Shown here piece by piece: positions 15,931 to 47,232 of a stretch of DNA of 64,000 nt (positions within the stretch are counted from its first letter, which is position 1; each line of letters starts with the position of its first letter). The notes below the pieces were generated by a model. The model saw only the letters and a program-made list of their open reading frames with translations. It ran no database searches and was not told the origin of the DNA. This DNA comes from Chondrilla cf. caribensis (taxonomy: Eukaryota > Porifera > Demospongiae > Chondrillida > Chondrillidae): contig OZ026567.1 of the NCBI GenBank assembly GCA_964020155.1, forward strand, positions 588,382 through 652,381, in the 5' to 3' direction. Made by a program: the position numbers and the translations under genes.

Positions 15931-18900
15931 ATGAAAAGACGGAATCTGTCCAGCAATTTTGATCAAATTGGATGTTCTTACTCTCACAAGAAGAGGGAGC
16001 GTAAAAGAATACTAATCCAATCCAATCGTCATTTCCTCCTCTCAAGAATGTTCCAATCTCAGAACATTAGCTTCTTCTTTGTCAGTTCCCTCCTTTGTCT
16101 ACTGCTGTGTTCCTCACCACCCAGTGACACATGGAGTCTCCAGGACCTTGCCATATTTGTAGTGGTATTGTTCACCAGTGATACAGAACTGGTGTTGAGT
16201 GGCATTCTCTACAAAGCCATTCAGGGGATGGTACACTTGATGGGATGTTGGATAACTTTGAGATCACTCAAATCAATGACATGTAACAGGAAACCTTGTG
16301 CAATCCTCTTTCTGTTGAAAGATAAGTTATTTTGGTATTACATTTGTGCTGAATTAAAAAGTCGAATGATTTCATTGGTTAAGATTTTCATTAAGCATCT
16401 CAAATTGAGGGACAGGAGAACTGCTTCTATTTTTGAGCTAAATGACATAAGCCATGTCAAATCTGATGAGAAAGTTATCCCACTTCCCTTCAAACAAGTG
16501 GGTTGTACATTAAGAGTTTGCAAAATGCCTAGTGTAGCCAGTCACCACTTGGTACTTCCTCTCTGCTGTGGTATGCAAGTCTTTGTGAAAACCCTGACTG
16601 GCAAGACTATCACTCTTGAAGTGGAGCCAAGTGACACAGTTGACAATGTGAAGGCCAAGATTCAAGACAAGGAAGGCATCCCACCAGATCAGCAGCGTCT
16701 TATCTTTGCCGGCAAACAACTGGAAGATGGTTGTACTCTCAGAGAAACCAACATTCAAAGAGAATCAACCCTTCACTTGGTACTTCGTCTCCGTGGTGGT
16801 ATAAATATCTTTATAATAACCTTGAGTGGCAATACAATCACTCTTGAAGTGGACCCAAGGGACACAGTTGACAATGTGAAGACCAAGATTGAAGACAAGG
16901 AGGGTATCCCACCAGATCGACAACGTCTTCTCTTTGATGGCAAAGAACTGGATGATCGTCTTAGTCTTCGAGACTACAACATAGGTTACAGAGAGGAGAC
17001 TCTCAACTTATTACACCGTTCTGCCCCACATATAGAAATCTCTGTGGAAACACTCACAGGCAGAACAATTTCCCTCACAGTTGATAATTGTAACACTATT
17101 GGTAACCTCAAAAGTAAGATTGAGGAAAAGATTGGTGTCCCAATAGACCAACAGTGTCTTCTTTTTACAGACCAACAACTGGAAGACAGACGTACCCTAT
17201 GGTACTACAAAATACAGGAGAAATCTATTCTTCACTTGCTGCAACCATTTCTAGAAAGTATTCCAATCTTTGTGCAGTTCCCAACAGGCGAGACAAGGTG
17301 TTTTGAATGTGAACCAAGTGACAGTGTTGCCAACCTCAAACACATCATTCAAGGACGAACAGAAATTCCACAAAAACAGCAGATCCTTACCTTTGCTAGT
17401 GAACAACTGGAGGACACATGTACTCTATCGCACTACAACATTTGTAGTTCTTCCACTCTCCACCTTGGGCTGCGTTTTCTTGAAACTGTACAGGTGTTTG
17501 TGAAAATCCCGTCTGGTGAGACAATCTCTCTTAGCATGAACCTTAGTGACACTGTTCACAAGGTGAAGACTGAGCTTCAGGATATAACGAATATACCATT
17601 AGTCACCCAGCATCTCGTCAACGTAGCTAATGAAGATCTGAAAGATTTTTATACTCTGAGAGATTACAACATTGAGAGTAATTCCACTCTCAGCTTAGTG
17701 TATGCTGATTCCATGCAATACTACAGCGATCAATATCAAAGAGCTATGAAGGAGAATCCAGTAGTGACACTGAGGATAGCAAAGGCCATCACCACAGGAC
17801 CTCCTCGTGTGGGGAAGACCTGGTTGAAGAGTCTTCTGTTGGGACAACCTCCTCCAAAAAAGAGCCTCAGTACCCCAATCCTCGACAAAGCAGTTACCAT
17901 TTCTGTACCAGACCCAATCCAGAGTGAGGTTCAGTACCATAGTGATCGTGTGCTCTTGATATCCTCCTCCAGTGGATGGAGTGTGGTAGATGATGTGACT
18001 AGTTTGAAGTCACTTTTGAGTATTGTGCAATCTGAATTGAGTACAAGTCAAATTGCTGATCGACCACCTACCCAAGAAACTACTGGTCCACCACCTACTC
18101 AGCGAACCACTGGTCCACCACCTACCCAGCACACTACTGGTCCACCACCTACGCAGCAAACCCCTGGTCCACCACGTACTCAGCAAACATTTTCCAACTG
18201 TTTTGCTATTGACGATGATGTGAAAGGGGGAATGTTGGTACCAAAGGTTACTGGACAAGTCTATGATTTCAATAGAGTGGGTGAATTGGTCCAAGAAGCA
18301 CTCAATAAACTCGACGACTCAGTAAAAGGTGTCAACCTACAAGGCAAGAGATTACTGCAGTTCATTGACACTGGAGGTCAGCTTGCCTTCCACGATATCC
18401 TTCCTCTCTTCCTAACAACACCAGCTGTTTACCTTCAAGTCTTCAACATGTCACAACCTCTGGACTCACATCCCACTGATGCCGTGAGACTGGAGTCAGG
18501 ACAGGTATCCTCGGAGGAGTCTCCTTTCACTAATAAGGAGCTCCTCATCAGATCTCTCACTAGTATTCATTCTCTGTCAGACAGACCTGTGAATATCCCA
18601 GAATTCGGTATTGTAGACACTCTACACAAATCACCCACTCAAGTCCTTGTTATCGGTACTCACAAGGACAAAGTACCACTGTATGAGCTCCCAGAGACCA
18701 TTGGCTGTATCAGTAAATCCATTGGAGATGCTATCAAGGACAAACCCTTTGAACGAGATGTGATCATCCATCCAGAGAGCGGCCACTACTTCCATCCAGT
18801 CAACAATGCACTGTACAGTCAAGAAGTGGAGGAGAGGTCAGATACTAATCAGCTAGTTGACTTCATCAGAGATAAAGTAGCTGCAAACTGTGAGCGTACA

Positions 18901-46800: not shown

Positions 46801-47232
46801 ATGTAAATTAATTGGTTAACGTGACCATCGCATGATCAGCAGTTGACGCAAGCAAAATGGCAAAATTCATTCAAAGCCTGTATACATGAGCTGGGATAGG
46901 TTAATTGAGGTGTTTATCCTTTTGTACCTATACTTGTAGAAAAGATCCCTTCTGAAGCTTCGTTCTCCTTTATCTTGGATAAAGTACCTGTTTGGCAGAA
47001 GTTGGTGATCAGACTCGGAGTACCTATTGATCAAGTGGAGGCACTACAAGCTGATTCCATCATGGGTGGATTTAGGGCTCTCAAACTGTGGCAATCTGGA
47101 CTCTATACTTCAAAGGGATATCCTCCAACTTGGGAGTTATTATTGAAAACCATAGAGGATTTTGCTGGTCCTCTTGTTAGTGAAGAGATAGCAGAGAGAG
47201 CAGCTGTAGAGGAGACCTGGTCTATTCAGTGA
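40878..47232 (+). CDS. Gene C: eight-repeat polyubiquitin-like / Roc-COR-like GTPase / Death-domain protein
   Basis: Exons 40878-45557, 45669-45714, 45855-46025 and 46940-47232 join in frame to 1729 residues. After the ~215-residue family N-terminus come eight ubiquitin-like repeats (ATGs at 41523, 41748, 41973, 42201, 42429, 42657, 42885 and 43113). All are close to true ubiquitin around QQRLIFAGK. Repeats 1, 2, 6 and 7 end in GG before Met; 3 and 4 end RRG; 5 ends CSF; 8 runs straight into the GTPase. GTPase motifs are GPPRVGKT (846), DTGGQ (1039) and THMD (1136). The linker is not the proline repeat of A and B but includes tandem HDIDDVHDIDEV. The COR-like region and Death domain (KVPVWQKLVIRLGV, PPTWELLLKT) are conserved. 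The third exon is unrelated in sequence to its counterpart in A and B. The gene abuts PARL, 270 bases downstream. Confidence 0.85.
41523..43320 (+). repeat. Tandem ubiquitin-unit array in gene C
   Basis: Eight units of 225 or 228 bp. Units 1-3 are spaced 225 bp because of a one-codon deletion (the lysine equivalent to K63 is missing in units 1 and 2). Unit 2 and much of units 1 and 3 are almost identical at DNA level, including silent sites, indicating recent duplication or conversion within the array. Confidence 0.9.

Follow-up and report, generated by a model that had tools for sequence, protein, structure and literature searches.

The 64,000-nucleotide stretch of Chondrilla cf. caribensis DNA analysed here (the window; contig OZ026567.1, positions 588,382 to 652,381 of the forward strand) sits on a 4.8-Mb contig, C22, of a 137-Mb genome. 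Its plus strand carries three genes, A, B and C, in which an N-terminal extension, a row of ubiquitin-like repeats and a GTPase follow one another in one frame, with a predicted Death-fold domain in the last exon. From the first codon of A (15931) to the stop of C (47232), they occupy the same limits as the region that a first-pass annotation, made from the letters alone, had singled out as a tandem family of ubiquitin-array, Roc-COR-like GTPase and Death-domain fusions. The parts of the three genes are as follows (window positions; the near group is defined below):

15931..16572, plus strand: gene A, N-terminal extension, its two hydrophobic segments possibly a membrane anchor; frame 1 open (0 stops, 16 and 15 in the other plus frames); counterparts recognisable in B, C and further near-group members
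16573..17703, plus strand: gene A, five ubiquitin-like repeats (five Pfam PF00240 stretches; positions from family profiles)
17698..19932, plus strand: gene A, Roc-COR GTPase to the end of exon 1 (family hidden Markov model, motifs; fold via the gene B model)
20094..20145, plus strand: gene A, exon 2, linker (GT-AG, in frame)
20217..20423, plus strand: gene A, exon 3, linker (GT-AG, in frame; junctions common to the predicted protein P0024)
20719..21014, plus strand: gene A, exon 4, Death-fold domain and stop (AF2 and PDB matches, hhalign)
25164..25796, plus strand: gene B, N-terminal extension (open frame; recognisable in near-group proteins)
25797..26693, plus strand: gene B, four ubiquitin-like repeats (Pfam PF00240, family profiles)
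26682..29000, plus strand: gene B, Roc-COR GTPase to the end of exon 1 (structure predicted from 26640-29000)
29316..29361, plus strand: gene B, exon 2 (GT-AG, in frame)
29462..29656, plus strand: gene B, exon 3 (GT-AG, in frame; junctions compared with P0024)
29788..30083, plus strand: gene B, exon 4, Death-fold domain and stop (in-frame model, family profiles)
40878..41522, plus strand: gene C, N-terminal extension (open frame; recognisable in near-group proteins)
41523..43322, plus strand: gene C, eight ubiquitin-like repeats (Pfam PF00240, family profiles)
43308..45557, plus strand: gene C, Roc-COR GTPase to the end of exon 1 (Pfam, motifs, family profiles)
45669..45714, plus strand: gene C, exon 2 (GT-AG, in frame)
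45855..46025, plus strand: gene C, exon 3, diverged from A and B (GT-AG, in frame)
46940..47232, plus strand: gene C, exon 4, Death-fold domain and stop (in-frame model, family profiles; the only one of the three lacking a Pfam Death match)

Exon 1 of A, B and C is a single stop-to-stop frame of 1358, 1316 and 1595 amino acids, starting at 15877, 25110 and 40824, respectively. Joined to three short downstream exons, it yields complete in-frame models of 1518, 1457 and 1729 amino acids in which all borders are GT-AG and the stop codon, TGA, ends at 21014, 30083 and 47232. Judged by their sequence, all three gene models have four exons and are intact, the splicing of exons 1-4 being predicted. 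The related protein P0024 (776 amino acids, from a 2646-bp JGI contig) runs uninterrupted through the junctions of exons 1-2-3-4 and looks like a spliced transcript; because it begins downstream of the ubiquitin array, it carries no information on the array-GTPase joint, and its tail, used as a query, recovered only P0024 itself among 769 candidates. The N-terminal extension, of about 211-215 codons, is open in all three genes, and the other plus-strand frames contain 12-17 stops. Two 19-residue stretches with a Kyte-Doolittle mean above 1.7 are present in the N-terminus of each gene, which is possibly a membrane anchor.

Pfam PF00240 recognizes 5, 4 and 8 stretches in exon 1 of A, B and C (E 4.8e-96, 2.9e-90 and 4.4e-230), confirming the repeat numbers that had been counted ahead of the GTPase. 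The GTPase motifs named in the first-pass annotation are likewise all present: the P-loop and DTGGQ in each gene, followed by THKD in A and B or THMD in C. The Roc motif set (P-loop, DxGGQ, THxD) is found in 77 of 79 family rows, P0073 being without D[TC]GGQ and P0015 without [TS]HxD, and the motif columns are near-invariant across 30 aligned sequences. The suggested check of all four domains with hidden Markov models was decisive for ubiquitin (E <= 2.9e-90) and fell short of the Pfam cut-offs for the other three: in A, B and C, Roc scores E 0.03-0.05 and COR-A E 0.0012-0.034, while Death (PF00531) scores E 0.14-0.17 in A and B (12.4-12.7 bits vs a gathering score of 22.6) and has no match in exon 4 of C. 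Six of 11 family members have a Pfam Death match at E <= 1 (best E 0.037), and the family's Death exons are not among the Death-domain matches of the genome-level search.

Despite these sub-threshold scores, we call Roc, COR and Death because structure prediction supports their folds. For the GTPase part (gene B model, 26640-29000), Foldseek gave 19 matches at E <= 0.001, every one of them a Roco protein, and COR directly follows Roc in the predicted structure, as in a Roc-COR fold. Exon 4 of gene A is modelled as a six-helix death fold; Death domains are its best AF2 and PDB structure matches, and hhalign is in line with them. A PDB sequence search with the Death profiles returned no matches (the profile was swollen by P0024), and a second search gave one unrelated match at E 1. 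The Roc, COR and Death assignments are thus predictions from fold comparison; combined with the profiles, they support the order of ubiquitin array, Roc, COR and Death that had been proposed, which Pfam by itself leaves sub-threshold for the last three.

The genes had been described as a tandem family of three. The tandem paralogy is real, but the family is not a local trio: scanning 192 kb of C22, 12,700 bases excepted, and 10 kb of contig C9 with family profiles located at least ten array, Roc-COR and Death units, nine in one cluster on C22 and one on C9. A Death exon lies downstream in all ten (A, B and C are among the sequences from which the profile was built). The frame is unbroken across the array-GTPase joint in 8 of the 10 and is interrupted in the third repeat of two C22 units (frames from 547918 and 564510). 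Those two breaks are what one would cite for an artefact or decay, that is, separate genes read as one, or pseudogenes. We consider this scarcely credible, since eight joints are open, the same fusion is predicted in relatives with a GTPase 37-47% identical, and the ratio of nonsynonymous to synonymous substitution (dN/dS) stays below 1; the open joints and dN/dS led us to drop both variants. By NG86, in nine pairs chosen from the 28 possible within this genome, and not independent of one another, dN/dS is 0.23-0.69 for arrays, 0.25-0.63 for Roc-COR and 0.53-0.98 for the N-terminus.

Two kinds of incomplete locus accompany these units. At C22:523739-527413 (L044:3739-7413), four full ubiquitin repeats and a partial fifth are followed by a Death exon, with no Roc-COR profile match between them; this locus would be either a deletion derivative or a ubiquitin-Death gene. 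A ubiquitin-like array at window 10318-11502 (plus strand; 4 Pfam stretches) lies in a frame without a GTPase and has more diverged repeats at its end; two sister arrays occur upstream in the cluster (C22 frames at 479089 and 534122).

The fusion extends beyond this genome. In 78 of 111 protein matches to the GTPase part (six of the 111 from this genome), 1-19 repeats precede the GTPase in the same predicted protein. With 8 of 10 joints open here and 78 of 111 matches fused, the in-frame fusion reported in the first-pass annotation is no chance event. We placed 112 of 114 rows in a tree built by a quick method, in which the root is arbitrary and long branches meet; P0107 and P0110 were left out as too short. 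One group (SH-aLRT 97) unites the 79 ubiquitin-bearing rows with P0019 and P0024, both cut short before the array, and splits into a near lineage of 27 rows, the one to which A, B and C belong, and a far lineage of 54, each with SH-aLRT 100. Thirty relatives without ubiquitin are separate (100), and one more lies on a very long branch; because these proteins appear to be single-frame predictions, they may have an array on an upstream exon. The tree is compatible with either one fusion and later renewal of the array, or two fusions in sister lineages.

Among the 26 near matches compared with the frames of this genome, P0007, P0008, P0010, P0016 and P0017 are identical to its own units and P0001 is 99.4% identical to B, and the remaining 20 reach at most 86.5%; P0001 and P0007 duplicate B and A. 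A far-lineage query brought up 65 proteins. Of these, 12 were new, and the precomputed annotation assigns PF00240 to each of them; these 12 stand outside the repeat-by-repeat counts given below. The evidence for the Death exon comes from the context of this genome, the far-lineage rows being proteins without genomic context. The array begins at residue 1-3 in 47 of the 54 far-group predicted proteins and at residues 10-37 in the other 7. Within the near group, P0020-P0022 and P0110 have a different N-terminal extension of roughly 277-340 residues, with a hydrophobic stretch in P0020-P0022. The ubiquitin-array Roco family therefore has at least ten units here and many elsewhere, and is no local oddity.

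Head-to-tail ubiquitin repeats fused to another protein are also found in polyubiquitin precursors and ribosomal ubiquitin fusions (cf. PMC6721733), and A, B and C might by the same logic be precursors from which deubiquitinases release free ubiquitin and a separate GTPase. Some repeats retain the signal for this: RGG ends a repeat, with the next repeat starting, in 36 of 145 near repeats, and gene C repeats 1, 2, 6 and 7 have Gly-Gly followed by Met. Gly-Gly is carried by 56 of 127 upstream repeats in the near lineage, but by just 39 of 560 in the far lineage, and the repeats differ from the organism's ubiquitin. At the partner joint, where A, B and C depart from the known fusions, not one GTPase-adjacent repeat has Gly-Gly, whether in the 27 near or in the 54 far rows. 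Its absence in all 81 indicates that, at this joint, the array does not serve as a precursor releasing ubiquitin and that the string, lacking a ubiquitin cleavage signal there, likely stays attached. We accordingly dropped the cleavable precursor, which we hold to be very improbable. The earlier description of the array as polyubiquitin-like holds in that the array is, by its sequence, ubiquitin-derived; its GTPase-proximal part is no longer ubiquitin.

Conservation was counted over 145 near and 614 far repeats, with P0001 and P0007 dropped. K27 is retained in 0.99 of near and 0.95 of far repeats, and a hydrophobic residue occupies the core positions in 0.92 and 0.885. Identity in the Ile44 patch is 0.65 near and 0.42 far (vs repeat averages of 0.754 and 0.562) and in the tail, residues 72-76, 0.49 and 0.23; the linkage lysines, the tail and often the Ile44 patch decay while the ubiquitin core stays. 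Of the 25 near proteins, 23 have at least one repeat with a full Ile44 patch, as do 34 of the 54 far ones. A kept core, a lost tail and a partial patch indicate that the fold is retained, that the cleavage site has been given up, and that a binding face remains on some repeats only. As a separate observation, in the repeats of both groups Arg to Cys or His predominates among the changes at R42 and R54 and is frequent at R72 and R74, a pattern expected from CpG decay.

Expansion of the arrays, divergence of the repeats outside the core, and the pairing of gene C repeats 1-2 and 3-4 as mutually closest could also reflect a stiff spacer or solubility tag, generated by unequal crossing-over and without a partner of its own, with Roc-COR and Death doing the work. 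We think this improbable, as an array is present in 79 of 81 tree-group rows (the other two are truncated ahead of the P-loop) and its dN/dS is below 1.

The host's own ubiquitin bears on the origin of the repeats. Two polyubiquitin genes with 4 and 5 repeats (G000:C5:5005199-5006338 and C22:820381-821292) encode a single protein sequence, which differs from human ubiquitin by I23V, E24D and S57G. V23, D24 and G57 are present in 9 of 9 repeats, which is unusual for a protein that hardly varies. In near repeats of 60 or more identities, V23 occurs in 62, D24 in 53 and G57 in 56 of 85; far repeats of the same quality have I23 (93 of 94), E24 (76 of 94) and S57 (77 of 94). The simplest reading is that, once the two lineages had split, the arrays of the near lineage were taken or renewed from the ubiquitin of that lineage. 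Canonical ubiquitin evolves slowly, and a star-like history would also put repeats closest to it, so nearest-neighbour counts, in which a few indel-bearing repeats were out of register, are no proof of gene conversion; we limit our claim to the common V23, D24 and G57 residues.

These residues also suit an array that serves as a sensor or bait rather than as an output platform: a diversified part made of several ubiquitin-like domains, in the position of the leucine-rich repeats (LRRs) of other Roco proteins, would report microbial enzymes that cut or modify ubiquitin, in the manner of an integrated decoy, and the Death domain would signal. Such a role fits the range of 1-19 repeats among relatives, the variation of surface, tail and linkage lysines around a constant core, the residues common to host polyubiquitin and many high-identity near repeats where far repeats have I23 and S57, the tandem expansion, and the precedent of prokaryotic LRR-AP-GTPase-COR conflict proteins (PMC8195603). 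Against it, contact with a microbial protein would have to be postulated, dN/dS stays below 1, and not every array follows this genome's ubiquitin: in the near branch of P0020-23 and P0110, which come from other genomes, all 37 repeats carry I23 and 29 of them E24, and of the 8 repeats in the C9-type rows P0017 and P0107, 6 carry V23, 3 carry E24 and at most 1 carries D24. We regard the sensor as a possible but unlikely explanation.

Among the closest known systems are Roco proteins (LRRK1/2, MFHAS1, prokaryotic Roco), from which A, B and C differ by a ubiquitin-like array instead of LRRs, by the lack of a kinase match and by the terminal Death exon. The main text of a Roco review divides these proteins into three architectures, none with ubiquitin, a word that occurs 0 times in it; it marks the DAPK1 group by an additional Death domain, and reports a proposal that Roc-COR alternates between dimer and monomer with nucleotide (PMC6337361). 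DAPK1 thus shares with A, B and C the combination of Roc-COR and Death. They differ in that exon 1 of A, B and C places an array before the GTPase and contains no kinase among Pfam matches at E <= 1, for which reason DAPK1 orthology was dropped. OASL, for which we claim no homology, also bears tandem ubiquitin-like domains (UBLs), at its C-terminus; they stay fused, mimic polyubiquitin and enhance RIG-I signalling (PMC6019448). OASL has two UBLs vs up to 19 in this family, and neither Roc-COR nor Death. Polyubiquitin is fused to the apoptosis adaptor domain TRADD-N in animal proteins, a comparable pairing, according to the accessible portion of PMC8195603, which mentions no Roco fusion; exon 1 of A, B and C, the part scanned, has no TRADD-N match at E <= 1. 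Among the titles and abstract openings listed by a literature search, with most subscription papers and all preprints outside its coverage, none describes a ubiquitin-array Roco protein, and nothing useful emerged on Roco proteins as integrated decoys; the former is consistent with the first-pass remark that the architecture was unfamiliar. We read ubiquitin array, Roc-COR and Death as a new Roco architecture and file it as a variant of the Roco family.

By analogy with the Roco cycle, the OASL precedent and the TRADD-N fusion, we read the product of A, B and C as a signalling hub switched by GTP and equipped with a non-cleavable ubiquitin-like chain of head-to-tail units; the predicted Death fold would be an added output. 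Our confidence in this interpretation is about even. It builds on the order of the parts, the unbroken frame, the loss of Gly-Gly at the joint, the conservation of the GTPase motifs, a dN/dS that stays below 1 for both array and GTPase, and the tandem amplification, each of which is evident in the sequences. Roc-COR would cycle between monomer and dimer with nucleotide, as in other Roco proteins, and would thereby bring the arrays together or disperse them. Joined as in M1-linked chains, the arrays would attract signalling proteins that bind ubiquitin, by way of those repeats in which the Ile44 patch persists, and the Death domain would seed a death-fold assembly or enter one. The hydrophobic N-terminus may place A-, B- and C-like members at a membrane. 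Judging by domain content and family expansion, and by these only, the most likely biological role is defence or regulated cell death. Ile44-patch identity below the repeat average speaks against the idea that all repeats are simple ubiquitin mimics. The main rival, a sensor or bait, would account almost equally well for the variable array and the partly lost binding face.

Linear ubiquitin chains are normally made and removed by enzymes. Here, the genome encodes a linear ubiquitin-like chain in frame with a GTPase switch and a predicted Death domain. The family is expanded, and its dN/dS is below 1. If ubiquitin-binding proteins read the array, the switched hub would amount to a hard-wired ubiquitin signal under GTP control and offer a natural way to find out what is switched by Roco GTPases. 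Plant receptors carry integrated decoys, and if the array is a bait, the family would be an animal parallel to them. A bolder and quite doubtful version would make these proteins Roco-based intracellular immune receptors, in which a string of host ubiquitin, re-seeded as bait from the polyubiquitin gene to match the target of invader enzymes, would on damage or modification flip the GTPase and fire a Death response.

Other features of the locus and genome lie outside the three genes. A 13-bp minisatellite of 111 copies (CTGTAGGTGGTCC) occupies window positions 23033-24481, between A and B, and a 14-copy array of the same 13-bp unit precedes gene A at 15050-15236. Between B and C, at 32837-38129, are zinc-finger-like, 631-amino-acid transposase-like and PHD-finger-like frames that look, by eye, like mobile-element or domesticated genes. 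Elsewhere in the genome, C3:3363994-3761778 holds a series of Death-domain matches in long open frames of up to 3199 amino acids, another expanded Death family.
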